From Chitinophagaceae bacterium (GTDB lineage Bacteria > Bacteroidota > Bacteroidia > Chitinophagales > Chitinophagaceae), in NCBI GenBank assembly GCA_025934485.1, contig JAICXX010000031.1, forward strand, positions 1 through 45,796: 45,796 nucleotides of DNA, written 5' to 3'. The position numbers and the translations under genes were made by a program. A model generated the notes under the pieces. It was not told where the DNA came from and searched no databases. It saw only the letters and a list, made by a program, of their open reading frames with translations. The first letter of the stretch is position 1. Every line of letters starts with the position of its first letter. Positions 10,432 to 45,796 of this stretch are shown piece after piece.

Positions 10432-12045
10432 ATGAAACGATATAAATTTCTATTTCTGGCGATGATACCGGCGATGTTGACGGTGTCCTGTAAGAAGTCG
10501 GCTTTTGTAGAAGCAAACATCAATCCCTCTACACTCACGTCGGTAGACCCGGGAGCCCAGTTCCTCTATGCGGCTGTACACGCCACCAATGACTTCGAAA
10601 CCTATTATGATTATTACCGTGCGATTATGCCGTGGATGCAGATGATCACGAATTCCGCCGGTAACGCCGAAAACTTTACCAACCAGAGCGGGAATTTCAA
10701 CTACCGCTATGGGAATTTCTACGGCAATGTGGGATTGGCATTGTCCGATATTCCGCATCTGGTAGCAAAGATGACAACAGCGGAACAGGCGGCCCGGGTT
10801 GACGAGCTGGCTATCGCCGCTATCTACAAGGCTTACTATGCCTTTTATGTGAGCGATATCAACGGGAGCATCCCTTATTCGCAGGCCTTCAAAGCGCGTT
10901 ATGGTGGAACGCTGACGCCTACTTACGACGAACAGCAGAATCTTTTCGATTCGCTGGATCTGCAGGTAAAGACGGCGGTGAATACGCTGGAGGCGACTAA
11001 CGAGTCGACCCAGACGCTTTATGGCGGTAACGACCCGTTCTACGGTGGGGCAGGCGATGAGGCGCTGGCCTGGGAAAAAGCAGGTAATGCCCTTCGCCTG
11101 AAGATGGCGATGCGGTCGCTGAAACGCAACCCCAGCGGTGTGGCTACCATCGTTCAGGAGGTGCTGGCCGATACTCACCAGATGTCCGCCTATACCGATT
11201 CGTGGGTGTTGCCCGTCGGGACTGCTTTTGCTACCTCGACCAGCGCGAACAGCAACTACAACCCCACCGGTTTCCTGGCCGCAGCGCCCCTGGTAAACTT
11301 CATGAACGCGAACAGCGATCCCCGGGAACCCATCTACTACCGGAAAAATGTCCATGGGATCTATCTGGGCAGCCCTACCAGCCCGGATACCTGTACCGAC
11401 GCTTACTGGCAGAATGTGTATAAGAATGACGCGGATACGTTCTCCGCTGTACAGCACCGCCTTTTCACCCCCGATTTCGACGAGGGTGATGGCAATGGCA
11501 CCGGTGCCGGAACAGGCTTCTATCCGCTGCTGACCTATGCTGAATACTGCTTTATCCGGGCGGACCTCGCTGCTCGTGGGGTCACTACGGACGATGCCCA
11601 GACCTGGTATACCAGCGGCGTAACGGCCTCTATTCAGTTTTACGACAAAGAGGCGCAGAACGCCCAGATCGCCAATTATACGCCCGTTACAGCGACCCAG
11701 ATCATTAACTATCTGGCTGCTCCGGGTGTAGCCTGGAATGCCGCCAAGGCTGAAGAACTCATCGCATGTCAGGCACATATCGACTTCTATCGTCAGCCGA
11801 GTGAAGCCTGGGCCTGGTGGAAACGCACGGGTTATCCCAACACTACCTCCGTTATCGCCTGGTCGACGCTTAGCAGCAATGGTGCGTTCAATACCCTCAA
11901 CCGCAGGGTGTCGCTGACACTATTGCCGACTTCAGACGCCAACTATGCCAATCAGCAGGCTGCCTACACGCAGATGGCGACCGATCCTAATTTCGGTACC
12001 AGCCCCAGTGATGCGCAAGGCCGTGTATGGTGGGATGCGCCTTGA
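10432..12045 (+). CDS. SusD/RagB-like nutrient-binding outer-membrane lipoprotein
   Basis: A 537-aa lipoprotein. The signal peptide ends in LTVSC (lipobox Cys near residue 20), followed by KK. The body matches the SusD-like_2 branch: YAAVHATNDFETYYDYYRAIMPWMQ near the start, TPR-like helices in the middle (WEKAGNALRLKMAMR) and the late ACQAHIDFYRQPSEAWAWWKRTGYPNT segment. SusD proteins cap the SusC channel at the cell surface and bind the substrate. An open frame extends 15 codons upstream into the end of susC; I chose the ATG at 10432 because it begins a proper lipoprotein signal. A strong terminator starts 20 bases after the stop. Confidence 0.93.
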   Translation: MKRYKFLFLAMIPAMLTVSCKKSAFVEANINPSTLTSVDPGAQFLYAAVHATNDFETYYDYYRAIMPWMQMITNSAGNAENFTNQSGNFNYRYGNFYGNVGLALSDIPHLVAKMTTAEQAARVDELAIAAIYKAYYAFYVSDINGSIPYSQAFKARYGGTLTPTYDEQQNLFDSLDLQVKTAVNTLEATNESTQTLYGGNDPFYGGAGDEALAWEKAGNALRLKMAMRSLKRNPSGVATIVQEVLADTHQMSAYTDSWVLPVGTAFATSTSANSNYNPTGFLAAAPLVNFMNANSDPREPIYYRKNVHGIYLGSPTSPDTCTDAYWQNVYKNDADTFSAVQHRLFTPDFDEGDGNGTGAGTGFYPLLTYAEYCFIRADLAARGVTTDDAQTWYTSGVTASIQFYDKEAQNAQIANYTPVTATQIINYLAAPGVAWNAAKAEELIACQAHIDFYRQPSEAWAWWKRTGYPNTTSVIAWSTLSSNGAFNTLNRRVSLTLLPTSDANYANQQAAYTQMATDPNFGTSPSDAQGRVWWDAP

Positions 12046-31624: not shown

Positions 31625-34600
31625 ATGAAGAATTTCTATTTAGTGACCACCTGCTTGTTCTTTTCGATCCGGACCCTTTCGCAGCAGCCGGTAACCGTTG
31701 CCTGTCTGGGCGCAAGCATCACCGCGGGCGCCACGCTTCCGCAACCCGGGACGCAGGCTTATCCGCAGCAGTTGCAAAAGCTGCTCGGAAGCAGTTACCA
31801 CGTGACCAACTATGGCGTCAGCAGTGCCACCCTTTTGCGTAAAGGCGATCTGTCCTATTGGAGCACTTCGGCTTACCAAACTGCGCTTCGGAGTCAGCCC
31901 GATATTGTCACCATCGACCTCGGGGGTAATGACAGCAAGCTCATCAACCGCATCTACGCCGACGAATTGTTGAAGGATGGCGCCGATCTAATCCGGAGCT
32001 TTTTCTGCGGCGGCCATCATCCGCGGATCATCATCCTGCTTCCCCTGCCGTGTTTTCTGGCGGATACCACACAAATTTACGACCGGGTGATCGTGCAGGA
32101 GATCGTTCCGCGGCTGCAGCAGTTGGCCAGGGCATTTCACGCGGAGGTGTTGGACCTGCATACCCCTTTTGTCGATAAAAAGAGCTGGTTTCGGGACGGT
32201 ATCCACCCCGATGAGCGGGGGGCTGCATTGACCGCGGGAAAGCTTGCCGGGCTGATCCGTCGTGGCCCTCCTGCGCACGTGGCGGTAGACTCCCCGCTTT
32301 CGCGGACCTTGTTCACGCCGGACTTTGCACCGGGTGAGCGCGCGACGACACCAGCGGAACGTGCTTTTCGGAATGATACCTGTCTCAACGGCTCCTGGCA
32401 GTTCATGCCGGTGGCGCTGGACGCCCATCCTGACCGCAGCGCGCTGGAGCAGGTGCAGCCGCCGGCGCATTTTGCCCGTGACCCCACGCCGATACGCATC
32501 CCCTCGCCCTGGAACGTGAATAGTTTTCCCGGCAGCAAGGACGGCGGAGATTTTATAACGTATCCCAGCTATCCCGCCCGGTGGGATACCGTGAGAGCAG
32601 GTTGGCTGCGGCGATGCATCCCGTATAAACCGGAGTGGCAAGGGCATCGTTTGCTGCTGCATTTCGAAGCGGTGGCCGGTTATTGCCGGGTATTTGTGAA
32701 TGGTGTTCTCGTCGGCAGTCATTTCGATAATTTTCTGCCGTTCGATCTCGATATTACTCCTGCGATGCGACTGGGAAAGTCCAACGAGCTGCTGGTGTGG
32801 GTGGCATCGTCACGGCTCTTTGACCGGCCCGGACCATATGGCCGCCGCCCGTATGTGGGCGGTTCGTTCTGGGGACAGCATATCGCCGGTATCTGGCAGG
32901 ATGTGAACCTGCTGGTCCGGCCCGCGACCTATATCAGTGAGACCGTGGTACAGACGCTAGTGTCACAGGACTCCTTGCGGCTACAGGTGACGGTATGCAA
33001 TACGCAGGCACATGCGGTGTCGGTGCGGCTGAGTGCCGTCGTTCGTCCCTGGATCAACGAGGTCGGAACTTCGGTGGTCGAAGCCCCCGAGCCCCGTTGG
33101 CGATTGGGGGAGGAGGTGATGGCTTTTGATGGCCCCACGGTGGTGATTCCGGCACGTGCCGATACGACCGTGGCCTTTTCGGTGGTCGTTCGAGGCCGTC
33201 TGGCGCGCTGGGAGCCGGCGCACCCGAATCTTTATGGCGTGCTTGTAAAGACGGGAAATGATATTGCCTACACCCGTTTTGGCTGGCGCGAGACGACCAT
33301 CCGAGATAAAAAATTCTTCTTGAATGGTGAGCCGGTAATTCTCAAAGGGGACTCCTGGCATTTCATGGGTATCCCGCAGCTCACACGCCGCTATGCCTGG
33401 GCCTGGTATACGATGCTGAAGGCGGCGCATGCCAACACCGTGCGGCTGCATGCCCAACCCTATCCTTCGTTCTATCTCGATATGGCAGATGAAATGGGCA
33501 TCCTGGTGTTGGACGAGACGGCGATGTGGGCCAGCGACGGCGGGCCGGATATCACCTCCGGGGAATATTGGACCAGGGCGGCCGATCATTTGCGAAACCT
33601 GATCACCAGGGACCGCAATCATCCGAGTGTCTTTGGCTTCAGCGTCTGTAACGAGAATATCCCCGTCGCGATAAATGTATATCATGCGCCGGAGCCGCTT
33701 GTACAACGGCAGCTGGCGGAGATCGACCGCTGGGTGAAGATCGTGCAGGAAATGGATCCCACGCGGCCATGGATCTCCGGTGACGGCGAGACGGGCCGGC
33801 GTACGACGCTGCCGACCCTCATCGGGCACTATGGCGGAGATGCCGCTTACAAGGGATGGTCATCGGGCCCTGTACTATGGGGCGTGGGTGAGTCGGGAAT
33901 GGCGTATTATGGTACGCCGCGGCAGACGGCCGCTTACAATGGCGAGGCTTCCTATGTCTCGGCGGCGGGACGAATGCAGGGCGTGGCCGATGAAGCGCTG
34001 AAACTGGCAAATGCGCAAAAACGCTACCATGCGATCTACCGTTCTATCTTCAACCTGGTATGGTATGGCCTGAAACCCCTGGAACTGGGGCTTGCCGATA
34101 CGACCCGTGCGCCGATGCCGTGCGACGGCATCTTTTTTCCTGCTTTCAAAGAGGGACAGCCCGGTGTACAGCCCGAACGGCTTGGACCCTATACGACAAC
34201 GTTAAACCCGGGCTATGACCCGAACCTGCCGTTGTATCGCCCCTGGCCGCTTTTCACCACACTTGCCGCCTCGTATGGCGATACAGCGGTGCAGGCGGAC
34301 CCAGCGAAACCACCAACGGCTGAAAGCCCGGCTGCCGGTTCGGGCACGGCTATGACAGGAAGGGCTGCTACGAGCTCGGTGCAGGTGCTGTCCGGAGATC
34401 CGGCTTCGCTCGACACATTGCTGCAACAGCTAGGGGTAAGGGTGGACAAAACGTCCGATCATATTCTCATCGATGGCATCCATCTTCCTGATGCCGCGGC
34501 GCTGACGATGGTGATGGCCGCCGCGCGAAACGGGGCTTCGGTATTGATCTGGGGTATCCGGCCTTCGACAGTTCCCGCGATCAACGCGGTGTTGCCGCTA

Positions 34601-35383
34601 CCCATCACACTCACGGCGCGCAGGGCGACGTCTTTTATTCCTGCGGATAGAGCGCTTGGTGAGAATGCAGACTGGTATTTCAGCGAGTTGTCGAAACAAC
34701 CCGTGAGCGAATATGCTTTCAGCGGGGACGCGGTGAGCCATGGCCGGGTGTTGCTTGCCGCGTGCCGTGCCGATTGGCAACGCTGGAACGGCCGGCCCGA
34801 ATATGCCAAGACAGGGGCCTTGATTCGCAGTGAACGCGAGGCAAAACCCGCCGGTAATGTGCTGGTGAGCTTCACAACCGGCGTTGGCAGAATAGAACTT
34901 TTCTCGATCGATCCCGCGACTTTATACAAAGTTTCCAAACCGGCCTTGCGGAACGTCCTCGAAGCCTGGGGCTTGCGACCGGCAGATAGCACTGCCAACA
35001 CCAATGCCGCTTTAGACGCGGAAGGCCGGCTTGTCCGGGCAATGGTGAACGGATCGGTAACCGCTGTCACGGATGTCGCCGCGCCAATGCAGCTTGGCTT
35101 TTGGCTGTATAGCCCACGGTCGCTGGTGAACCTGCTGGTGGAACCCGATATTCCCACGGTGAGCCTGACGGTCCAGGGCAGCGACGATTGGCAGCTACGC
35201 GTGGGCGATAGCCCGGCAAAACCCCGCGCGCTGCCTTTGCAGAAAGGCTGGAACCATATTTTGATCGATATCCGGAAGTGTACGGCCGGGGAGTTGAAGA
35301 TCAGGCTTTCGAGCGACCATCCGGCGTTCTTATCCACCTTCCGTTCCAATGCCCTTGCCGCGGATACGGATGCAACAAATTAA
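31625..35383 (+). CDS. SGNH esterase fused to glycoside hydrolase family 2
   Basis: A 1252-aa exported enzyme (signal peptide to about residue 20, TLSQQ). Residues 22-215 form an SGNH/GDSL hydrolase: Ser31 in GASIT, Gly64, Asn102 in GGND, and Asp191/His194 in DGIHP. Residues about 253-880 form a GH2 module: sugar-binding jelly roll (LNGSWQF, WQGHRLLLHFEAVAGYCRVFVNG), an Ig-like domain and a TIM barrel with the putative acid/base Glu677 in VCNENIP and nucleophile Glu756 in WGVGESG. The remainder is beta-rich. One chain may deacetylate and cleave the same substituted glycan in the periplasm or at the surface. It is the first gene of the last locus; the next starts 2 nt downstream. Confidence 0.87.
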   Translation: MKNFYLVTTCLFFSIRTLSQQPVTVACLGASITAGATLPQPGTQAYPQQLQKLLGSSYHVTNYGVSSATLLRKGDLSYWSTSAYQTALRSQPDIVTIDLGGNDSKLINRIYADELLKDGADLIRSFFCGGHHPRIIILLPLPCFLADTTQIYDRVIVQEIVPRLQQLARAFHAEVLDLHTPFVDKKSWFRDGIHPDERGAALTAGKLAGLIRRGPPAHVAVDSPLSRTLFTPDFAPGERATTPAERAFRNDTCLNGSWQFMPVALDAHPDRSALEQVQPPAHFARDPTPIRIPSPWNVNSFPGSKDGGDFITYPSYPARWDTVRAGWLRRCIPYKPEWQGHRLLLHFEAVAGYCRVFVNGVLVGSHFDNFLPFDLDITPAMRLGKSNELLVWVASSRLFDRPGPYGRRPYVGGSFWGQHIAGIWQDVNLLVRPATYISETVVQTLVSQDSLRLQVTVCNTQAHAVSVRLSAVVRPWINEVGTSVVEAPEPRWRLGEEVMAFDGPTVVIPARADTTVAFSVVVRGRLARWEPAHPNLYGVLVKTGNDIAYTRFGWRETTIRDKKFFLNGEPVILKGDSWHFMGIPQLTRRYAWAWYTMLKAAHANTVRLHAQPYPSFYLDMADEMGILVLDETAMWASDGGPDITSGEYWTRAADHLRNLITRDRNHPSVFGFSVCNENIPVAINVYHAPEPLVQRQLAEIDRWVKIVQEMDPTRPWISGDGETGRRTTLPTLIGHYGGDAAYKGWSSGPVLWGVGESGMAYYGTPRQTAAYNGEASYVSAAGRMQGVADEALKLANAQKRYHAIYRSIFNLVWYGLKPLELGLADTTRAPMPCDGIFFPAFKEGQPGVQPERLGPYTTTLNPGYDPNLPLYRPWPLFTTLAASYGDTAVQADPAKPPTAESPAAGSGTAMTGRAATSSVQVLSGDPASLDTLLQQLGVRVDKTSDHILIDGIHLPDAAALTMVMAAARNGASVLIWGIRPSTVPAINAVLPLPITLTARRATSFIPADRALGENADWYFSELSKQPVSEYAFSGDAVSHGRVLLAACRADWQRWNGRPEYAKTGALIRSEREAKPAGNVLVSFTTGVGRIELFSIDPATLYKVSKPALRNVLEAWGLRPADSTANTNAALDAEGRLVRAMVNGSVTAVTDVAAPMQLGFWLYSPRSLVNLLVEPDIPTVSLTVQGSDDWQLRVGDSPAKPRALPLQKGWNHILIDIRKCTAGELKIRLSSDHPAFLSTFRSNALAADTDATN

Positions 35384-35385
35384 GT

Positions 35386-38300
35386 ATGATGACCCGAAGA
35401 AACTATATGCTGATAGCCCTCGCCCTGAGCCTGCCGCGAATGGTCGCCGCTCAGCTGAGCCAATATGACATTAGCTGGGATACGCCCGGACCGACTTCCG
35501 CCGCCTCCATGCCCTTAGGCAATGGAGATGTCGGCCTGAATGTATGGGTCGATCCCGGCGGCGATCTGCTGTTCTATATTTCGAAAACCGATGCGTGGGA
35601 CGGAGAGAAAGACGCCGCGGCCGATCCCTGGATGCAACAGGGCGGTGTACTGATGAAGTTGGGGATGATCCGGGTGCACAATGCCGCGGCGGACGTCTCG
35701 CATTTCCGGCAGACCTTGCATTTACAGGAAGGGATGATCACCGTCGAGGAAGGCAACATAGGTTACCGCGTTTGGGTCGATGCGAACCATCCGGTGATCC
35801 GGGTAGAGGTCTCCGGTACTTCCCCTACCACCGTTACCTTGCACGACTGGCGGATGAATGGCCTGGGGGATACTGTCATCGGGCACAGCGGAAATGGTAT
35901 CGAATGGTTCCATCACAATCCCCGTCCTGGCGATCCGCGGCTTGCCGATCCGCATCTGGCGGATATCGCCTTCGGCGCAGTGATCAGGGGGCAAGGGCTG
36001 AACAGGAAAGACGATACTACGCTCGCGGGCACGACAAAACTGCTCTCGATCTATCCATTGACGACCACCGGTGGTGATTGGACCGCCGCATCCGACCGGA
36101 ACGTTGCGCGGCTCGGGCGGCTCGATGTTGAAAAAACCTATAAGGAACATCGCGAATGGTGGGCAAAATTCTGGGACCGCAGCTATATCTATCTGCATGG
36201 CGATGCTGCCGCGGACAGCGTGACGCAGGGGTATGTGCTGCAGCGTTTTGTTACGGCCTGTGCCGGTAGGGGCGCCTATCCTATAAAATTTAACGGATCG
36301 ATATTCGTCGTCGACAATCCTGAATGGAAAGAACACGGCAAACCCGCGCCAAAGAATGCTGATTTCCGCGCCTGGGGCGGACAGTACTGGTTCCAGAATA
36401 CTCGGCCGATATATTGGCCGCGGCTTGCCGCGGGGGATTTCGATATGATGTTGCCGCTGTTCGACATGTATCTGCACATGTTACCAGAGAATGAAGTGCT
36501 GGTCCGGAAATATTACGGTCACGACGGGGCTTATTTCCAGGAGACCGCGCCCTTTTGGGGCGGGTTGCCTTTTATGGGCCCGGACGAGCAGGCGTTATAT
36601 ACCCATCACTATTTCACACCGATACTCGAGCTGAGCATGATGATGCTGGATTATTATGAATACACCGGCGACAAAGGATTCCTACGGAAATATCTTCTGC
36701 CGGTCGCCGGCGCGGGGCTCGAATTCTTTGATAAGCATTTTCCGCGGGATAGCGCGGGCAGGCTTTTGCTCGATCCCGATAATTCCATCGAGATGTTCTG
36801 GAAGGTGCATGACCCGGCGCCGGATATTGCCGGGCTGCATGCCGTATTGCCCCGGATGCTCGAGCTTCCGGTGGATGAAAAACTAAAGAGCAGTTGGCGG
36901 AAGTTGCTGGATATATTGCCGTCCTTGCCTGTCGACAGTACCGGCGCGGAACCCCGGCTGTTGCCCTACACCGGCGCGCAGACGGCAAAGTCGCATAACG
37001 AAGAGAACCCGGAACTGTATGCTATCTATCCCTTCAGATTGTTTGGGCTCGACAAGCCGGGGTTGGAGCTGGCCCGTCATACCTTTGACATCCGCAAATG
37101 TCCGCAGAAGGGCTGCTGGTCGCAGGATCCTGTGGAAGCGGCGATGTTAGGAAATGCCGATATGGCCAAAGAAGACGTTCGGTTCAATCTTACCCGGAAA
37201 GATGCAGACCTGAAATTCCCGGCATTCTGGGCAGCCGGTCATGACTACAAACCCGATGAGGACAATGGCGGGAATGGGGAATTGGGTCTCGAGCAAATGC
37301 TGTTGCATACAGATGGGAAGAAAATAATGTTGCTTCCGGCGTGGCCCGCTGGTTGGGATGCTGACTTCAAATTACATGCTCCTTACAAGACCATCATCGA
37401 AGGCAAGGTTCGGGATGGGCAACTGGTCGATCTCGTAGTGACACCGGCGGAGCGAAGGAAAGATATTGTCGAGCTGCCGAAGCATAGCGCTACCTCTCGT
37501 TTTACCTCTTATAAGGGACTGGTGATGGCCGGTTACCAGGGATGGTTCAACGCGCCCGGCGATGGGGCGGGACGCGGCTGGAACCATTACCATGCGAAAG
37601 GTCCGCTGGAAGACGGCAATTGCAAATTCGATCTCTGGCCGGATGTCTCGGAATATCCCAAGACCTACAAATCCCCCTTCACGCATGCCGATGGCAGCCC
37701 GGCCTATCTCTTTAGCTCGTATGACAGCAGTACTACGAATGTCCATTTCCGTTGGATGCGGCAGTATGGGATCGACGGCGTTTTTGTGCAACGTTTTGTG
37801 GGCAGTGTGCGATCCGATCCCAGCAGGCACGTTAACAATGTGGTGCTGGAGCACTGCCTGAATGCATCGCGTAAATATGGTCGCGCCATCGCCGTGATGT
37901 ACGATCTGAGCGGCATGCGGGACAGTGTCGATGTGGATGTCGTGATCAACGACTGGAAATACCTCGTAGACAGCCTGCGGCTTACGTCCCGCGGCGATGA
38001 CCAAACTTATCTCTATGAACATGGAAAACCCCTGGTGGCGGTGTGGGGCGCGGGATTTGGCGATCACCGGCCCTATACCTCCCGGAGTGTGGAGCGCATC
38101 CTGAACTTCCTACAGTATGACCCCGTCTATGGCGGTTGCGCGATCTTGCTGGGAGTGCCGACCTACTGGCGTGACCAGGGTAGCGATGCCGATAAAGACC
38201 CGTATTGGATGGATCTTTACAAACGGGTAGATATTATCCAGCCCTGGATGGTCGGGCGTTATCACGAAGATACCTATGCACCTTTTAAAGAACGGATCAG

Positions 38301-38733
38301 GGCCGATATCGCGTGGACGAAGACGCATCATGAGGAGTATGTGCCCGTGGTCTTTCCAGGGTTTAGCTGGCACAATATGTATCCCAATTTTCCTCCCAAC
38401 CAGATACCGCGGGATAGCGGCAAATTCTTCTGGGAACAGATCACCGGCGATATCCGGGCCGGCGCGCAGATGCTGTATGTGGCAATGTTCGACGAGATCG
38501 ACGAAGGGACGGCTATCATGAAGGCTTCGCTGGATCCACCCGTAGGCAAGAGCACCTTCGTGAAATTCGATCCGGGGATACCCAATGATTATTATCTGCA
38601 GCTTGCAGGGCATGCCGCAAAGCTGCTTCGGGGCGAGGAGCCATTCCGGCCGGACCCGCCGCCACCGGGAGACACGGCGAAACAGCCGCTTTACCTGGAC
38701 CTGAAAGGTACAACTATTACTCTTGCACAATAA
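35386..38733 (+). CDS. DUF5703-type glycosidase fused to a GH71/GH99-like domain
   Basis: A 1115-aa exported protein (signal peptide to about residue 23, MVAAQ). The N-terminal 700 residues begin WDTPGPTSAASMPLGNGDVG, the DUF5703_N signature, and continue in a helical-barrel region like GH95/GH65-clan enzymes (HDGAYFQETAPFWG, MLPAWPAGWDADFKLHAPY). From about residue 709 a second enzyme-like domain starts (YKGLVMAGYQGWFN) with the GH71/GH99-like pattern: GIDGVFVQRF, VMYDLSG, FPGFSWHNMYPN and YVAMFDEIDEGTAI. GH99 members cut alpha-mannosides, but this branch is poorly known. The frame is continuous. I start at the first of two tandem ATGs; the frame further upstream is inside the previous gene. 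Confidence 0.82.
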   Translation: MMTRRNYMLIALALSLPRMVAAQLSQYDISWDTPGPTSAASMPLGNGDVGLNVWVDPGGDLLFYISKTDAWDGEKDAAADPWMQQGGVLMKLGMIRVHNAAADVSHFRQTLHLQEGMITVEEGNIGYRVWVDANHPVIRVEVSGTSPTTVTLHDWRMNGLGDTVIGHSGNGIEWFHHNPRPGDPRLADPHLADIAFGAVIRGQGLNRKDDTTLAGTTKLLSIYPLTTTGGDWTAASDRNVARLGRLDVEKTYKEHREWWAKFWDRSYIYLHGDAAADSVTQGYVLQRFVTACAGRGAYPIKFNGSIFVVDNPEWKEHGKPAPKNADFRAWGGQYWFQNTRPIYWPRLAAGDFDMMLPLFDMYLHMLPENEVLVRKYYGHDGAYFQETAPFWGGLPFMGPDEQALYTHHYFTPILELSMMMLDYYEYTGDKGFLRKYLLPVAGAGLEFFDKHFPRDSAGRLLLDPDNSIEMFWKVHDPAPDIAGLHAVLPRMLELPVDEKLKSSWRKLLDILPSLPVDSTGAEPRLLPYTGAQTAKSHNEENPELYAIYPFRLFGLDKPGLELARHTFDIRKCPQKGCWSQDPVEAAMLGNADMAKEDVRFNLTRKDADLKFPAFWAAGHDYKPDEDNGGNGELGLEQMLLHTDGKKIMLLPAWPAGWDADFKLHAPYKTIIEGKVRDGQLVDLVVTPAERRKDIVELPKHSATSRFTSYKGLVMAGYQGWFNAPGDGAGRGWNHYHAKGPLEDGNCKFDLWPDVSEYPKTYKSPFTHADGSPAYLFSSYDSSTTNVHFRWMRQYGIDGVFVQRFVGSVRSDPSRHVNNVVLEHCLNASRKYGRAIAVMYDLSGMRDSVDVDVVINDWKYLVDSLRLTSRGDDQTYLYEHGKPLVAVWGAGFGDHRPYTSRSVERILNFLQYDPVYGGCAILLGVPTYWRDQGSDADKDPYWMDLYKRVDIIQPWMVGRYHEDTYAPFKERIRADIAWTKTHHEEYVPVVFPGFSWHNMYPNFPPNQIPRDSGKFFWEQITGDIRAGAQMLYVAMFDEIDEGTAIMKASLDPPVGKSTFVKFDPGIPNDYYLQLAGHAAKLLRGEEPFRPDPPPPGDTAKQPLYLDLKGTTITLAQ

Positions 38734-38743
38734 AAATCTGTAT

Positions 38744-40093
38744 ATGACACATAATCGTCGTGAATTGATCAAGATGCTGGGGCTCGGCGGCGCCGCATCC
38801 ATTTTAGGCCCTGTGGCGGCAAAGGCTGCACCGGAGTCGCGGACGGGTCGAGAGCTTCCGCGGATGTCTACGGGCGGACTGCCCCCGGTGACCATTCGTT
38901 CCGTGAAGGCCATCGCTACCAACCCGGCAGGCGCGAATCTCGTAGTGGTGAAGGTAGAGACCTCGGAGCCAGGGCTATATGGTGTTGGCTGCGCCACGTT
39001 TACACAGCGGGCGGAGGTGGTGGTAACCGCGATCAACAGCTATATGCCCGACTTCTGCGTCGGCAAGGATGTGGATAATATCGAAGACCTATGGCAGTCG
39101 TTTTTTGTGAGTTCTTATTGGCGCAACGGTCCCGTGCTCAACAACGCGCTTAGCGGACTCAACCAGGCGCTTTGGGATATCAAAGGGAAGCGTGCCAATA
39201 TGCCCGTGTATCAGCTGCTCGGCGGCAAGGCCCGGTTTGCGGTGGACTGCTATGCGCATGCCGACGGTAAGACGCCGGAAGAGGTAGCGGCGAACACGCA
39301 GAAATATATGGACGAAGGTTTCCGCTATGTACGTATCCAGCAGGGTGGCTATGGTAGCTTGCAATTGGCGAAACGACCGGACTGGCGCGATGCGGGGTTC
39401 GGCCGGCCCACCGATGATTTTATGGACCGGCACGCCTATGTGCTGGCCATTCCCAAATTATTCGAGACGGTACGAAAGGCTTGTGGCCAGGAAGTGGAGC
39501 TCCTGCACGATACCCACGAGCGGGTACAGCCGCAGGATATGATCAATATGTGCAAACGCCTCGAGGAGTTCGACCCGTATTGGATCGAAGACCCGCTGAC
39601 GCCGGAGAATATGCATTTGTTTCCGCAGCTAAGGGCGGCGACGACAGTGCCGTTTGCCATGGGCGAGCTCTTCAATAACCCCAACGAGTTCGTGGATTAT
39701 ATCGCCCATCGCGATTTTGATTATTTCCGCTGTCATGTCTCGCAGATCGGGGGCATCACCCCGGCGCTCAAGGTGGCTCACCTCGGTGAGTTCTTCAATG
39801 TCCGGAGCGGTTGGCATGGCCCCGGCGATGTTTCGCCCGTCGGACATGCGGCGCAGTGTCATATCGATCTGGCCATCTGGAATTTTGGCGTACAGGAGTC
39901 GATCTTTTTCAACGATCTCATCAAGGAGGTGTTCCCGGGTACGCCCGAGCTGAAGAAAGGCTATATGTATATCAACGAGGCGCCGGGGCTGGGTGTGGAC
40001 ATCAACGAAAAATTGGCGGCCAAATATCCGATCAACAACAATGCCGGCAAATGGACGCTACGTGGCCGGGATGGGACCATCATCAGACCGTAG
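38744..40093 (+). CDS. Tat-exported enolase-superfamily sugar-acid dehydratase (ManD/RspA-like)
   Basis: A 449-aa protein with a twin-arginine-type signal (NRRELIKMLGLGGAASILGP, residues 4-23). The body is an enolase-superfamily barrel of the mannonate dehydratase/RspA group. Metal ligands are D256 in LLHDTHERV, E282 in WIEDPLTPENM and E308 in FAMGELFNNP; likely catalytic residues include H258 and H358 in SGWHGPGDVSPVGHA. The family dehydrates acid sugars such as D-mannonate or D-gluconate to 2-keto-3-deoxy acids. Relatives are usually cytoplasmic, so export is notable. I start at the ATG 10 nt after the previous stop, not the TTG at 38723. Neighbours are an oxidase and a mutarotase-like gene, which fits. 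Confidence 0.88.
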   Translation: MTHNRRELIKMLGLGGAASILGPVAAKAAPESRTGRELPRMSTGGLPPVTIRSVKAIATNPAGANLVVVKVETSEPGLYGVGCATFTQRAEVVVTAINSYMPDFCVGKDVDNIEDLWQSFFVSSYWRNGPVLNNALSGLNQALWDIKGKRANMPVYQLLGGKARFAVDCYAHADGKTPEEVAANTQKYMDEGFRYVRIQQGGYGSLQLAKRPDWRDAGFGRPTDDFMDRHAYVLAIPKLFETVRKACGQEVELLHDTHERVQPQDMINMCKRLEEFDPYWIEDPLTPENMHLFPQLRAATTVPFAMGELFNNPNEFVDYIAHRDFDYFRCHVSQIGGITPALKVAHLGEFFNVRSGWHGPGDVSPVGHAAQCHIDLAIWNFGVQESIFFNDLIKEVFPGTPELKKGYMYINEAPGLGVDINEKLAAKYPINNNAGKWTLRGRDGTIIRP

Positions 40094-40124: not shown

Positions 40125-41072
40125 ATGCGAATGAGGATAATCGCGACAATGATCTTGCTGGCGACCGGCTTGACCGGCCTAACGCAGAGTCCGCCGCAGG
40201 CGGAGATCTCAAACGGGATCGTGCGGGCGCGGTTCTATCTGCCGGATACGGCCAATGGCTACTATCGCGCTACGCGGTTCGACTGGTCGGGTGTGATGCC
40301 TTCGTTGGAACATGCGGGCCACAGCTATTTCGGTCAGTGGTTTCCGAGATATGCGCCGACGATCCATGACGCGATCATGGGACCGGTGGAATCCTTTTCG
40401 CCACTGGGCTATGGGGATGGAGACACCTTCGTACAGATCGGCGTTGGCGTGCTGGTACGGCCGGATAGCGCGGCGTATTCGCCGTTCCGTTATTACCGGA
40501 TCAGGGATGCCGGGAAGTGGGTCGTCCGCAAAGGGCTGCGGCAGGTGGAGTTCCGGCAAACGGTCGCGGGCTATGTCTATACCAAGACGGTGAGCCTGAC
40601 CAGGGGAAAGCCCCAGCTGGTGATCACGCACCGGCTGCGAAACACGGGCAGCCGGCCCATCGAGACCGAGGTATTCGATCATAACTTTTTTGTTACCGAC
40701 AGCCAGACGATCGCCCCGGGTATCGTGCTGAAGTTCCCTTTCCCACTCGAGGCGGAGCAGGCCCGTGGGCTGAACCTGGCGGCGATCAGGGGTGATTCGA
40801 TCTCTATCCTTCGGCCCCTGAAGATCAACGAGTCGATGTATGCGATCCTGCACGGGTATGGCCCTATGGCATCGGATTATGACATCCGCCTGGAGAACCA
40901 TATCACCGGCGCCGCGGTCCGCATCCGCGCCGACAGACCGCTTTCAAAATTGATCTATTGGGGTTCCGTGAAAACCCTTTGCCCCGAACCTTATATCCAT
41001 GTGAGCGTAGCGCCAGGTAGGACGTTTAGCTGGACGCTTTATTACGATCTTTATACTGTCAACCCCTACTAA
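40125..41072 (+). CDS. Exported galactose-mutarotase-like beta-sandwich protein
   Basis: A 315-aa protein with a signal peptide (about residues 1-22, ending LTGLTQ). The remainder is beta-rich with blocks such as ISNGIVRARFYLPD, YYRATRFDWSG, HSYFGQWFPRY and THRLRNTGSRPIETEVFDHNFF, resembling the supersandwich fold of aldose 1-epimerases and related sugar-binding proteins. An epimerase His/Glu pair is not certain; H218 in THRLRN-like and E/D residues in FDHNFF are candidates by pattern only. Proteins that catalyse anomer exchange would supply the beta-anomer to a PQQ dehydrogenase, the next gene, which starts in the stop codon (TAATG). Function is inferred. An ATG at 40131 is an alternative start. 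Confidence 0.6.
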   Translation: MRMRIIATMILLATGLTGLTQSPPQAEISNGIVRARFYLPDTANGYYRATRFDWSGVMPSLEHAGHSYFGQWFPRYAPTIHDAIMGPVESFSPLGYGDGDTFVQIGVGVLVRPDSAAYSPFRYYRIRDAGKWVVRKGLRQVEFRQTVAGYVYTKTVSLTRGKPQLVITHRLRNTGSRPIETEVFDHNFFVTDSQTIAPGIVLKFPFPLEAEQARGLNLAAIRGDSISILRPLKINESMYAILHGYGPMASDYDIRLENHITGAAVRIRADRPLSKLIYWGSVKTLCPEPYIHVSVAPGRTFSWTLYYDLYTVNPY

Positions 41073-44000
41073 TGAAACTGCTATTTGGTTGTTGTTTTCT
41101 TTTTTTGCTTGCGTGTAACCGGCAGCATGGACCCAATGTCGATTATGCGGTGTATGGCGGGAACAAGCAGAATAATCGTTATTCGGCTTTGCGGCAGATC
41201 GATGGTTCGAATGTCAAAGATCTGCAGCCGGCGTGGACGTATAATTCCGCCGATACCGGCGTCTCCAAACATGAGCATGATATCCAATGTCAGCCCATCG
41301 TGGTGGATGGCATCTTATATGGGGTAAGCCCCACGTTGAAACTATTTGCGGTGAGTGCGGCAACGGGTCAGCAGATCTGGAAATTCGATCCCTTCAAATT
41401 CGCCGCGCCGCGGTTCAACCAATGCCGGGGGATGGCTTATTGGACCGATGGAAAAGAGAAGCGCATCTTCTACTCCGCCGGCCCCAATCTTTATTGTGTC
41501 GACGCGCTTACCGGCACCCAGGAACCCAGGTTTGGCCATGACGGCCGGATCTCTTTGTACACCGGTCTCGCCATCAATCATCCCGTAATCGATCTATATG
41601 TGACCGCGACCTCACCACCTGTGATCTATAAGAATATCCTGATCGTTGGTTCCGCCGTATCGGAATCGGGCGACGCCGCCCCGGGGTATATCCGGGCTTT
41701 TGATGTGCTCACGGGGAAACTGTTATGGACCTTTCACAGCATACCCCAACCGGGCGATCCGGGATACGACACCTGGCCGGCGGCTACCTATAAATGGATG
41801 GGCGGAACGAACAACTGGAGCGGTCTTTCGCTGGATGAAAAACGCGGCGTGGTGTATTTCGGCACCGGCTCACCCTCGTCCGACTTCTATGGCGGCGACC
41901 GGGCCGGCATGAACCTTTTTTCCGATTGTATCATGGCGTTGGATGCGACCAGCGGGAAGATCAGGTGGTATTATCAGACCATACATCATGATCTGTGGGA
42001 CCGGGATATCCCCTGTCCGCCGAATCTCACTACGGTGATGCACAATGGGAAGCGGGTGGATGTCGTTGTTCAGAGTACAAAGGACGGATTGGTCTATGTG
42101 CTCGACAGGGACAGCGGCATCTCACTTTTTCCGGTGGAAGAACGGCCGGTTCCGACGCATGGTCTACCTGGCGAACATCCCTGGGCTACGCAGCGCTATC
42201 CATCGAAACCGTTGCCGTTCTCGCACCAAACGGTAACCGACACAGATCTTACAAACATCTCACCTGCGGCACATGACTACGTGCAGCGCATCTTCGATCA
42301 AACGACCAGGGCGCCGAAAAATAAGTTCCTCCCGCCGGACACGGGAGGAACGGTACTCGTAGGCTATAGCGGTGGTGCCGAATGGGGCGGTAATGCGGTC
42401 GACTCCGAAGGTGTTTTCTATCAGAATGCCAATGATGCTCCCTGGCTGCTCAGGATGATCTCGATGGAAGCGCGGCAGAAAGAGATCGCGAAATTATCCG
42501 TTGGCTATGGGCTGTATATCGCCAACTGCGCGCCTTGTCATGGTGCGGACCGAAAAGGCAATGGGCATGAGATCCCCGAGCTGCTGCATGTTGGCCAACG
42601 ACTGAAGCCTGCGGACATGGCGGGCATTCTCAGAAACGGCCAGGGGCGGATGCCCAGTTTTCAGCAGCTGCCGGAGGAGCAGCGAACAGCGATCATCAAC
42701 TTTTTAGCCAGCGGCCACGATGGATACCGGGTCGCGGCAGAGCACCGGGAAACACCGGCAGCGCCGGAGGTGAGGACTCGCGAGCGGGCCGGGACCGAGG
42801 AGATAACCTTTCCCTACAAACCACCTTATATCAGCAAGGAATGGGAGAAGCTCACCGACTCCGACGGATATCCCGGTATCAAGCCGCCGTGGGGTACGCT
42901 GAATGCCATCGACTTGAATACCGGCGACTATCGGTGGCGGGTGCCGTTGGGTGAATTTCCCGAGCTAACGAAAAAGGGGATACCCGTTACTGGGATGGAA
43001 TCATATGGCGGCCCGCTGGCGACGGCGGGAGGTCTCGTGTTTATTGCAGGGACGCGGGATGAGATGATCCGCGCTTTCGACAAGGCGACGGGTAAGGTGG
43101 TATGGCAGTATCATTTGCCTGCGGCCGGTTTTGCCACACCTATTACTTATATGGTCAACGGCGTCCAGTATATCGCCATAGCGGCAGGAGGGGGCAGGGG
43201 GTTGAAAACGGGCGGCGATTATGTTGCTTTTGCGTTGCCACAGTTCGCACATGCCGCCACAGCCCCTGGCGGACCGGGTGGGTGGATACTCATGGGGTTA
43301 TTTGTGTTGCTCGCCCTGCTGGTCCGGCGTTCGCCCACGCTGAAGGGCTTCTCGTTTACGCTGACGATCTTTGCCGCGGTTAGTCTCGCGATGTATTACC
43401 CTGCGTATTTTACACACATTGGAAGCTTCAAGCTGTCGAGGCTGATCTTGCCGCTGATACAAATCATTATGTTCGGGATGGGGACCGAGCTCTCGCTACA
43501 GGAATTCCGCAATGTGGTCCGGATGCCCAAGGGTATATTGATCGGAGTGATGTGTCATTATACCATCATGCCGCTGGTGAGTATTGCCGTGACCTCGCTT
43601 TTCCATTTTCCCAGCGAGATCGCCGCGGGCATTATTTTGGTGGGTTGTTGCCCCAGTGGATTGGCCAGCAACGTGATGTCATATCTCGCACGGGCAAATC
43701 TGGCGCTAAGTGTCTCGGTGACGGCGATCTCGACCCTGCTTGCGCCGTTTCTGACGCCCATGCTAATGAAACTGTTCGCCGGGCAGTACATCGATATCCA
43801 CCTGGGCGCCATGATCTGGGATATTGTCCAGATCGTGATCATCCCGATCGCTGCGGGTTTGCTCTTCCATTATATTGTCCGGGGACGTTTTCGCTGGCTG
43901 GATAAGGCCATGCCGCTCGTGTCGATGGCCGGCATCGCGCTCATCATCGTGGTGATCACGGCTGCGGGGCGCGATAGCCTGCTGAAGGTAGGCGTGCTGC

Positions 44001-44308
44001 TGATCGTGGCAACGCTGGTGCAGAATTTTGCCGGCTATACCCTGGGTTATTGGGCTGCACGGTGGATGGGACTTGGGGAAGGGGACCGAAGGACGATAGC
44101 GCTCGAGGTGGGAATGCAGAATGCGGGGCTGGCATCGGGGCTTGCATTGGGATTAGGGAAGCTCGCGACGGTAGGGTTGGCCCCCGCCGTGTTTGGACCG
44201 ATGATGAATATTTCCGGGTCGGCCCTCGCGACATGGTGGCACAAGCGGCTGCCGGCGGAGGCCGACATCGCCGAAGATGAAAAAAAATCCCTGAAAATCA
44301 GCGATTAA
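41072..44308 (+). CDS. PQQ dehydrogenase with inserted cytochrome c, fused to a BASS-family transporter
   Basis: A 1078-aa single frame. A lipoprotein-type signal ends LLAC (Cys15). Residues about 22-470 and 570-723 form a quinoprotein propeller (YGGNKQNNRYSAL, LQPAWTY, a final YIAIAAGGGRGLKTGGDYVAFALP). Between them lies a cytochrome c domain with CAPCH at 486-490 and its axial Met in GRMPSF. After the propeller comes one extra membrane helix (738-751), then a complete bile acid:Na+ symporter-like (BASS) transporter (about 757-1060): FGMGTELSLQEF, GCCPSGLASNVMSYLA, and E1012-x3-Q1016-N1017, the Na+-site motif. The enzyme half oxidises sugars or alcohols in the periplasm; BASS transporters import organic acids. 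No stop codon or frame change separates the halves. I know of no described fusion like this. Confidence 0.9.
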   Translation: MKLLFGCCFLFLLACNRQHGPNVDYAVYGGNKQNNRYSALRQIDGSNVKDLQPAWTYNSADTGVSKHEHDIQCQPIVVDGILYGVSPTLKLFAVSAATGQQIWKFDPFKFAAPRFNQCRGMAYWTDGKEKRIFYSAGPNLYCVDALTGTQEPRFGHDGRISLYTGLAINHPVIDLYVTATSPPVIYKNILIVGSAVSESGDAAPGYIRAFDVLTGKLLWTFHSIPQPGDPGYDTWPAATYKWMGGTNNWSGLSLDEKRGVVYFGTGSPSSDFYGGDRAGMNLFSDCIMALDATSGKIRWYYQTIHHDLWDRDIPCPPNLTTVMHNGKRVDVVVQSTKDGLVYVLDRDSGISLFPVEERPVPTHGLPGEHPWATQRYPSKPLPFSHQTVTDTDLTNISPAAHDYVQRIFDQTTRAPKNKFLPPDTGGTVLVGYSGGAEWGGNAVDSEGVFYQNANDAPWLLRMISMEARQKEIAKLSVGYGLYIANCAPCHGADRKGNGHEIPELLHVGQRLKPADMAGILRNGQGRMPSFQQLPEEQRTAIINFLASGHDGYRVAAEHRETPAAPEVRTRERAGTEEITFPYKPPYISKEWEKLTDSDGYPGIKPPWGTLNAIDLNTGDYRWRVPLGEFPELTKKGIPVTGMESYGGPLATAGGLVFIAGTRDEMIRAFDKATGKVVWQYHLPAAGFATPITYMVNGVQYIAIAAGGGRGLKTGGDYVAFALPQFAHAATAPGGPGGWILMGLFVLLALLVRRSPTLKGFSFTLTIFAAVSLAMYYPAYFTHIGSFKLSRLILPLIQIIMFGMGTELSLQEFRNVVRMPKGILIGVMCHYTIMPLVSIAVTSLFHFPSEIAAGIILVGCCPSGLASNVMSYLARANLALSVSVTAISTLLAPFLTPMLMKLFAGQYIDIHLGAMIWDIVQIVIIPIAAGLLFHYIVRGRFRWLDKAMPLVSMAGIALIIVVITAAGRDSLLKVGVLLIVATLVQNFAGYTLGYWAARWMGLGEGDRRTIALEVGMQNAGLASGLALGLGKLATVGLAPAVFGPMMNISGSALATWWHKRLPAEADIAEDEKKSLKISD

Positions 44309-44387: not shown

Positions 44388-45796
44388 ATGAAAAAATGTC
44401 TGCTACTGCTCCTGCTAGCATTGAGTCTTTTGAGAACAAATGCACAGGACAAAACGGTCAAAGGAACAGTTTCCGATGAAACCGGCAAGCCCCTCGCCGG
44501 TGCCACGGTCACTATCAAGGGTACCAATATTTCTTCTGTCACCAACGCCGAGGGCGTTTTCACGATCAACACAGGTAGTGTGCTGAAGCCCGTTTTCACC
44601 ATTTCTTTTGTGGGGTACGAGAACCAGGAGTACACCTTTAAGGGACGTTCCGGTTTTACCGTTGCCCTTCACCAGGATTCCCGGACCTTAGGTGACGTGA
44701 TCGTAGTTGGTTATGGTGTCCAACGGAAACGCGACGTTACCGGCGCTACCGCGGAAGTCAAGGCTGCCGACATCGTAAAGAAGCCGATCGTCCGGGTGGA
44801 AGAGGCCCTGCAGGGAACGGTTCCGGGCGTGACCGTTCAGAGTGTCAACGGGATGCCGGGCAAAGAGCTGGCCGTGCGTATCCGGGGTACTGCCTCTATT
44901 AACGGCAACAACGATCCGCTTTATGTGATCGACGGTCAGATCGGCGGGGACATTTCCACGATCTCACCCAATGACATCGAGTCGATCGAAGTCCTCAAAG
45001 ACGCCTCGGCGACCGCCATCTATGGATCGCGTGGTTCTACCGGCGTAGTCATCATCACCACCAAGCTGGGGCATGAGGGCAAGCCTCGTATCGATATCAA
45101 CCCCTGGATAAAGAAAGAGGAGATCGCCAAGGAACTGCCGATCATGAACGCTTATCAATTCGCCATCGCGACCAATGCACAGTATGCGACGACGGGTCAG
45201 CCCGCGGCTTTCAGCGACGCGCAGATCCAGTCCTTTCAGACAAATCACGGCACTAACTGGCAGAAGGCCCTCCAGGATAAACCGTGGGTCCAAAACTACC
45301 AGGTATCCGTTTCCGGCGGTTCGAACGATGTGAGATATATGGTCTCTTATCTCCACCTGGACAACCCCGGACTGATCATCAACCAATGGTATCGTACGGA
45401 TATTGCCCGCGCGAATCTTTCGATCAAGGCCAGCGACCGCATCAGCCTTCAGTTCAATCTCACCGGTTCGCTGCCGCATAACCGCAACACGCAATACCAG
45501 GGTGATATCACCGATCCATTCGGAGAGGCCTATTCCTGGGACCCGACCTCGCCCATCAGGGATGCCAGCGGCAATTTTATTCTCGAATCGCAATATGCGG
45601 CGCTGGGGATCAATCCCATCGCCCAGGAGACGAACGGGCTCAACGACAACACCGGGACTCATTTGGCCGGGACGGGTATTCTGACCTGGCGTATCCTCAA
45701 GGGCTTGACCTTTACGTCGAACAATACGTATGCCAACAGCTCGAATATGAACCGTCAGCTCTATGGACCCGGCACGAGCACCTATCTGGCGAGTTC
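44388..45796 (+). CDS. SusC/RagA-family TonB-linked outer-membrane transporter, 3' end missing
   Basis: The frame runs off the window after 469 codons. It has a signal peptide (ending LLRTNAQ, residue 20), a carboxypeptidase-D regulatory-like domain (KTVKGTVSDETGKPLAGATV), a TonB-box-like LGDVIVVGYG, the plug (QGTVPGVTVQSVNGMPGKE, IRGTASINGNNDPLYVIDG, EVLKDASATAIYGSRG) and the start of the barrel. It presumably imports the oligosaccharide handled by the upstream fusion enzymes, with a SusD gene expected just outside the window. It is 79 bases downstream of the dehydrogenase-transporter gene and has the shared upstream motif. Confidence 0.94.
   Translation, partial: MKKCLLLLLLALSLLRTNAQDKTVKGTVSDETGKPLAGATVTIKGTNISSVTNAEGVFTINTGSVLKPVFTISFVGYENQEYTFKGRSGFTVALHQDSRTLGDVIVVGYGVQRKRDVTGATAEVKAADIVKKPIVRVEEALQGTVPGVTVQSVNGMPGKELAVRIRGTASINGNNDPLYVIDGQIGGDISTISPNDIESIEVLKDASATAIYGSRGSTGVVIITTKLGHEGKPRIDINPWIKKEEIAKELPIMNAYQFAIATNAQYATTGQPAAFSDAQIQSFQTNHGTNWQKALQDKPWVQNYQVSVSGGSNDVRYMVSYLHLDNPGLIINQWYRTDIARANLSIKASDRISLQFNLTGSLPHNRNTQYQGDITDPFGEAYSWDPTSPIRDASGNFILESQYAALGINPIAQETNGLNDNTGTHLAGTGILTWRILKGLTFTSNNTYANSSNMNRQLYGPGTSTYLAS

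Follow-up and report, generated by a model that had tools for sequence, protein, structure and literature searches.

The window analysed here, a 45,796-nucleotide stretch of a Chitinophagaceae bacterium (contig JAICXX010000031.1 of assembly GCA_025934485.1), contains a gene that joins a putative sugar oxidase, predicted to face outward, to a membrane importer in one chain. The gene (positions 41072–44308, forward strand) is a single ATG-to-stop open frame of 1,078 amino acids, in which a quinoprotein dehydrogenase, a cytochrome c domain and a transporter of the bile acid:sodium symporter (BASS) family are fused. Its parts, in order, are a signal sequence with a lipobox-like LLAC (residues 1–15, 41072–41116; a helix at residues 2–17 of the structural model); the first part of a pyrroloquinoline quinone (PQQ) propeller (about residues 24–470, 41141–42481); an inserted cytochrome c domain (residues 476–547, 42497–42712; Pfam PF13442 and PF00034) with CxxCH at 486–490; the last part of the propeller (about residues 575–725, 42794–43246; Pfam and model); a linker modelled with low confidence (about residues 726–735, 43247–43276); an extra membrane helix, helix b (residues 736–752, 43277–43327); and the complete ten-helix BASS core (residues 760–1057, 43349–44242), with an E-x3-Q-N motif at 1012–1017. 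Pfam PF01011 matches the propeller in two stretches (best 27–470, E 5.6e-175; 583.9 bits against a curated cut-off of 26.7), which places it in the PQQ dehydrogenase superfamily. Cytochrome_CBB3 matches residues 476–545 (E 1.3e-12) above its curated cut-off, and SBF (PF01758) residues 794–971 (E 1.4e-41; 142.8 bits against 24.3). Pfam thus confirms the single-frame build that a first-pass annotation had read from the sequence, whose coordinates, motif and junction near base 43270 are correct. The narrower models for the transporter half are not reached: 223.7 against 326.3 bits for TIGR00841 (BASS) and 230.1 against 400 bits for the PanS equivalog NF047939.

An AlphaFold2 model of the full chain recovers both halves and the extra helix, a check that the same annotation had proposed (mean predicted local distance difference test score (pLDDT) 80.9, predicted TM-score 0.63; input alignment of 47 rows, most spanning only one half). 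It contains the propeller, a separate helix at 736–752 and the BASS helices at 760–1057, two of them broken. Residues 708–730, which reach into the linker, have pLDDT below 50, and the model is silent on contact between the halves. Foldseek matches the BASS half to ASBT_NM (8oyf, TMt 0.92; 3zux, 0.93) and the propeller to the quinoprotein dehydrogenases 8gy2 and 1kb0. By predicted model and Foldseek, the ASBT_NM fold with its two broken crossing helices is present, as expected of a BASS protein.

The same chain recurs in other genomes. Among 58 genomes (the window's own, G000, and 57 relatives), with frames read from the fetched stretches, the PQQ–BASS order is found in five genomes of the window's genus, four of them additional to the window's. 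It is complete in G000 and in G031, whose gene matches the sequence of public record JAFDYE010000440.1 (metagenome-assembled genome SZAS-43). In G023 the frame meets the contig end just past the BASS core, in G029 the contig stops inside BASS, and in G004 frame and contig stop together after 802 residues, just past the extra helix. Between fixed motifs, the linkers of the five fusions measure 8, 10, 13, 28 and 48 residues, with the frame kept and no stop. PQQ and BASS also occur as unfused adjacent genes, in G018, G003 and G013 (in the last, the called frames overlap by four bases, provided that the called TTG start is real). Such neighbours could have lent weight to an assembly or frameshift error joining two genes, the outcome that the first-pass annotation had said would overturn its reading; with five genomes sharing the join on different contigs and with differing stop-free linkers, we reject this explanation as having next to no probability.

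Within the samples searched, the fusion looks confined to the window's genus. There, a close BASS (E ≤ 1e-60) is present in 19 of 33 genomes (23 matches), and six of the 23 matches lie in frames longer than 600 residues (G000, G023, G031, G029, G032 and G007). In the family, 89 of 394 genomes yield a BASS match (E ≤ 1e-70), and all those listed, the match of the window's own genome excepted, lie in frames of at most 467 residues; this sample is an even draw with a few members of the genus in it. Across the phylum, 28 of 395 genomes have a match at E ≤ 1e-60, the longest listed frame, the window again apart, being 401 residues. In G000 itself, the fusion is the only BASS match at E ≤ 1e-60; a more distant one (48–49%) lies on contig C51.

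Topology and other fusions of the BASS clade

The number of hydrophobic helices before the BASS core switches from two to one in the PQQ–BASS fusions. Among 87 single BASS proteins scored, two such helices precede the core in 78, one in 7 and three in 2, whereas all four PQQ–BASS fusions scored have one. Of 105 rows, 12 without the anchor motif, including the cut reverse fusion L034, were dropped from this scoring, which covered 45 upstream residues for PQQ–BASS and as many as 75 for the other proteins. Helix b is followed by basic residues (RRSPTLK), consistent with a cytoplasmic end. Loss of the first helix would place the part before helix b outside, flipping the N terminus, which supports the role given earlier to the extra helix and the predicted outside location of the propeller.

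The halves also occur in the reverse order. A BASS–PQQ fusion of 1,116 residues is complete in G032; G004 (L034) holds the start of another, cut by the contig; and G029 probably holds a third (L042), with BASS and a lipobox-like helix before the contig end. In G007, BASS is fused to an RraA-like domain (674 residues). A signal-like helix separates the halves in the reverse fusions and in BASS–RraA, ending in a lipobox-like motif in L033, L034 and L042 and in IHA-Q, which resembles a signal-peptidase site, in L035. Every fusion arrangement is thus predicted to place the enzyme outside. At L033 (3977–7327, forward strand), the internal helix of the BASS–PQQ chain ends in a lipobox-like LTGC, and this chain could be cut and lipidated internally. 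The BASS–RraA gene of L035 (5708–7732, reverse strand), joined through its signal-like helix, lies in an operon with DgaE-like and RidA-like proteins with starts of the twin-arginine translocation (Tat) type, a gluconolactonase-like protein and a PQQ dehydrogenase. The DgaE-like protein scores below the cut-offs of the DgaE-family ammonia lyase models that it matches, and the operon looks like an exported glucosaminate route.

On a tree of 105 BASS rows, with support from the Shimodaira–Hasegawa approximate likelihood-ratio test (SH-aLRT) only, a 98% branch separates the PQQ–BASS rows from BASS–PQQ and BASS–RraA, each of which sits among unfused genes. About four changes of fusion state are needed, a rough count since the contig-cut L042 was labelled as single. 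The PQQ–BASS rows fall in an unresolved fork with unfused genes, and this tree does not settle whether they have a single origin. On a tree of 33 PQQ rows, the five PQQ–BASS rows fall in a 99% clade of seven with the unfused L057 and L040. The L057 tail starts with PKNDLAG, resembling the linker of its sister L054, which suggests that L057 lost its BASS part.

Outside the Bacteroidota, PQQ and BASS are adjacent and unfused at two loci of Acidobacteria (L112 and L102). At L102 8243–8248, the TGA of the PQQ gene is followed by a same-frame GTG and the BASS frame, a single stop codon lying between them. On the Haematobacter plasmid pOT1-3 (L185), about 1 kb separates BASS from a PQQ dehydrogenase, with a TetR gene and a hypothetical gene in between. 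This may be a parallel in the Alphaproteobacteria; it is not counted as the same system.

Operon context and a proposed sugar-acid route

Two genes upstream of the fusion lies a ManD-like sugar-acid dehydratase of the enolase superfamily with a twin-arginine-type start (38723–40093, forward strand). Its nearest solved relatives belong to the ManD family (3t6c, residues 57–456, E 5.8e-132). Between it and the fusion is a mutarotase-like protein with a hydrophobic N terminus and an uncertain start codon (40125–41072, forward strand), the stop codon of which shares one base with the ATG of the fusion. It matches 3nre in Foldseek (E 2e-9) and no Pfam or NCBIfam model; only about residues 130–314 are well modelled, the first 129 being weak. 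Further upstream is a glycosidase (35383–38733, forward strand) that combines DUF5703 and GH95-like parts with a GH99-like part at its C terminus (37477–38637); the latter scores 30.6 bits, just under the Pfam cut-off of 33, and is 58% identical to its counterpart at L058. That counterpart is a separate gene, so that 35383–38733 is another fusion in the cluster. Before it, 31625–35383 encodes GDSL-lipase and GH2 domains in one frame of 1,252 residues. Downstream of the PQQ–BASS fusion lies the gene for a SusC-type TonB-dependent receptor (44388–45794, forward strand), cut by the window end. GH92 or GH99-like matches occur at five of 116 sources (the window, L040, L057, L058 and L143; four genomes), all of them PQQ or ManD-like loci, which favours mannose as the putative sugar.

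Relatives extend this picture. A query with the single protein gave no relative in the genome-contig scan, whereas a four-row alignment gave at least 80 loci. In the 80 named loci, RraA or MR_MLE dehydratase genes are present in 64, RraA-like genes in 56, DgaE-like together with RidA-like genes in 15, and PQQ together with BASS in 13, a share that is overstated because the loci were chosen by similarity to the fusion. At 29 loci chosen by BASS similarity alone, an RraA-like or MR_MLE gene lies within about 1.5 kb in every case. The operons of the BASS clade appear to hold mostly exported sugar-acid enzymes: by a crude motif test, Tat-type N termini are present on 12 of 13 ManD-like, 9 of 9 UxuA-like, 16 of 16 DgaE-like and 16 of 16 RidA-like proteins, whereas among galactonate-dehydratase-like proteins the figure is only 38 of 59. 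Hydrophobic N termini are present on 101 of 104 RraA-like proteins. These counts refer to proteins at least 40% identical to the query, read from the first possible codon, some cut by locus ends and some counted more than once in overlapping loci. Dehydratase routes of this kind would yield 2-keto-3-deoxygluconate (KDG) or a similar 2-keto-3-deoxy acid.

Two relatives connect the clade to KDG. In Allomuricauda sediminis (L099) and a flavobacterial metagenome-assembled genome (L107), PQQ and BASS are unfused neighbours, and genes for a sugar kinase and an aldolase come directly after them on the same strand. The aldolase passes the equivalog cut-off for KHG/KDPG aldolase (KDPG, 2-keto-3-deoxy-6-phosphogluconate; 365.8 and 368.5 against 275 bits). 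The nearest matches to this kinase and aldolase in the window's own genome stand in tandem about 40 bases apart (G000:C173:24958–26617; 36% identity each). In a Flavobacterium, both a KDG kinase and a KDPG aldolase are characterised enzymes (PMC5334617).

On balance we favour a scheme in which the fusion carries out the first and the last extracytoplasmic steps of a sugar-acid route, with KDG imported by its BASS half. The propeller and cytochrome c, outside the inner membrane, would convert an aldose (mannose or glucose) by oxidation into the corresponding lactone or aldonate, with the fusion's own haem relaying the electrons to the respiratory chain. The ManD-like dehydratase, presumably exported, would then turn the aldonate into KDG on that side of the membrane. 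Import of KDG by the BASS half, probably together with sodium, would deliver it to KDG kinase and KDPG aldolase, which would complete the route inside. Because mannonate and gluconate would both give KDG, the cargo would not depend on the sugar. The first-pass annotation was borne out in tying a transporter of an acid-importing family to an oxidase; its suggestion that the oxidation product is handed over directly finds no support, given the Tat-type dehydratase two genes upstream and the KDG-kinase-like and KDPG aldolase genes that follow PQQ and BASS in relatives. Instead, a further enzyme probably acts on the product before it is imported.

A wider proposal can be put forward more tentatively: that Bacteroidota run an unphosphorylated upper half of an Entner–Doudoroff-like route outside the inner membrane, that the BASS clade imports KDG-type keto acids, and that one genus repeatedly fused the importer to different pathway enzymes, at either end, as a covalent oxidise–dehydrate–import assembly.

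Alternative cargoes and opposing evidence

The strongest alternative, though in our view an unlikely one, is that BASS imports the aldonate (mannonate or gluconate) made by the propeller and that dehydration takes place inside. It would account for the two domains being in one chain. According to PMC10645422, ASBT_NM binds pantoate and not ketopantoate, which is put down to Asn265, and PanS is implicated in ketopantoate transport; evidence from relatives on the BASS cargo is therefore mixed. An operon with PQQ, RraA and dehydratase genes and without BASS (L060) encodes at 10674–11927 a major facilitator superfamily (MFS) protein nearest to a D-galactonate transporter model (267 bits against a cut-off of 395), and its genome, G006, lacks a close BASS. 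A gene of the same length and with a very similar start is present at L066, and L113 has both BASS and an MFS gene resembling that of L060. Three observations oppose import of the aldonate: the dehydratases have Tat-type starts; in L099 and L107, BASS is followed by genes for a KDG-kinase-like protein and a KDPG aldolase; and at the 29 BASS-chosen loci, dehydratase or RraA genes accompany BASS and PQQ does not. Since the upstream dehydratase has a Tat-type start and two relatives carry these kinase-like and aldolase genes, KDG appears a likelier cargo than the aldonate.

We regard it as improbable that the BASS half serves only to anchor the oxidase in the membrane, without transport being coupled to it. 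The two genes neighbour each other in relatives, so that the join could be neutral, and BASS is missing from two rows of the fused PQQ clade. Against this, the propeller already has a lipobox, the BASS half is the sole match in G000 at the threshold given above, and the Na1 site is conserved. At the positions that we take to form the Na1 site, Ser, Asn, Ser and Thr are present in all 105 BASS rows and Glu in 104 (one gap). 

Less probable still is the import of pyruvate made outside by an RraA-like aldolase. This would suit the frequency of RraA-like genes in the named loci, the BASS–RraA fusion of G007 and the presence of RraA somewhere in eight of the ten genomes searched. In the other two, G000 (93% complete) and G018 (74% complete), there is no RraA match at E ≤ 1e-20, and external aldol cleavage by RraA is therefore unlikely in the window's genome. 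Moreover, of the 14 loci with a ManD-like gene among the 116 sources (two genomes counted more than once), 11 have PQQ, 8 have BASS and none has RraA, and a KDG kinase and a KDPG aldolase beside BASS would be unneeded.

Several observations weigh against the KDG scheme itself. The Asn265 position is kept in 104 of 105 BASS rows (one gap), which by analogy with ASBT_NM speaks for a 2-hydroxy acid, such as an aldonate, over a 2-keto acid. The Thr112 position holds Leu in 82 rows, Met in 18 rows and Val in the other 5. At the Na2 site as we assign it, the Gln264 position is kept in 104 of 105 rows (one gap), and the Gln77 position (43556–43558, residue 829) holds His in 87 of 105 rows and Gln in 18; the sodium stoichiometry may differ. 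Family assignments fall short of the specific models for the fusion (427.2 against 832.65 bits for TIGR03074, membrane-bound PQQ glucose/quinate/shikimate dehydrogenase), for the ManD-like dehydratase (376 against 550 bits for the NCBIfam ManD equivalog) and for the kinase of L099 and L107, the best models of which (an aldolase/sugar-kinase fusion and KDG/KDGal kinase) are matched below their cut-offs. The gene association is also incomplete: no PQQ gene lies within about 1.5 kb at any of the 29 BASS-chosen loci; BASS is present at only 8 of the 14 ManD-like loci, although one of the six without it, L056, is a contig-cut fusion; the Dyadobacter loci L103, L105 and L106 have PQQ and ManD-like genes and no BASS within the stretch; and the L060 operon, like its genome, manages without a close BASS. 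The unfused L057 and L040 of the fused PQQ clade belong to genomes that hold another close BASS, so that the join is dispensable there. Finally, PQQ biosynthesis genes were not recovered: the best PqqE match in G000 scores 60.7 against 381 bits, with weak matches, none passing, in all 14 control genomes; at E ≤ 1e-60 PqqE is found neither in ten genomes nor in the controls, again with no positive control; and PqqC has no match in G000 or the controls, also with no positive control. Lacking a positive control, these searches do not establish the absence of the PQQ genes.

Relation to known systems

The protein is an enzyme–transporter fusion of recurrent build. What appears to be new is the pair of families that it joins and the occurrence of the join in both orders. 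Among the open-licence PubMed Central (PMC) papers listed by our searches, none describes such a build in its title or displayed abstract, in line with the earlier remark that no described enzyme of this kind was known. To our knowledge, fusions of a redox enzyme with a secondary transporter are very rare. That fusion has recurred in both orders, and also with a second enzyme of the pathway, suggests selection for keeping enzyme and importer close. The large BASS clade thereby gains a testable cargo, KDG or an aldonate. If the proposed route is true, many Bacteroidota would dehydrate sugar acids outside the cytoplasm, and electrons would feed respiration before any carbon enters the cell.

The fusion shares its PQQ propeller with the TIGR03074 dehydrogenases and the quinohaemoprotein alcohol dehydrogenases (1kb0 and 1kv9), and its HHDLWD and K-x-G stretches are like those of Escherichia coli glucose dehydrogenase. 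As in 1kb0 and 1kv9, the cytochrome c is in the same chain; unlike in those enzymes, it precedes the last part of the propeller rather than following the propeller, and a transporter comes after. The BASS half has the fold of ASBT_NM, ASBT_YF and PanS (TMt up to 0.96 among the matches listed) and keeps the Na1 positions, but differs from them at the Thr112 position (Leu, Met or Val) and the Gln77 position (mostly His), and the fusion adds an N-terminal helix and an enzyme. The upstream dehydratase is related to the ManD-family enzymes 3t6c, 4ihc and 3tw9, from which it differs by its twin-arginine-type start. A precedent in architecture is the fusion of SulP transporters to carbonic anhydrase, in which an enzyme is likewise joined to the transporter that it serves, with unrelated families and substrates.

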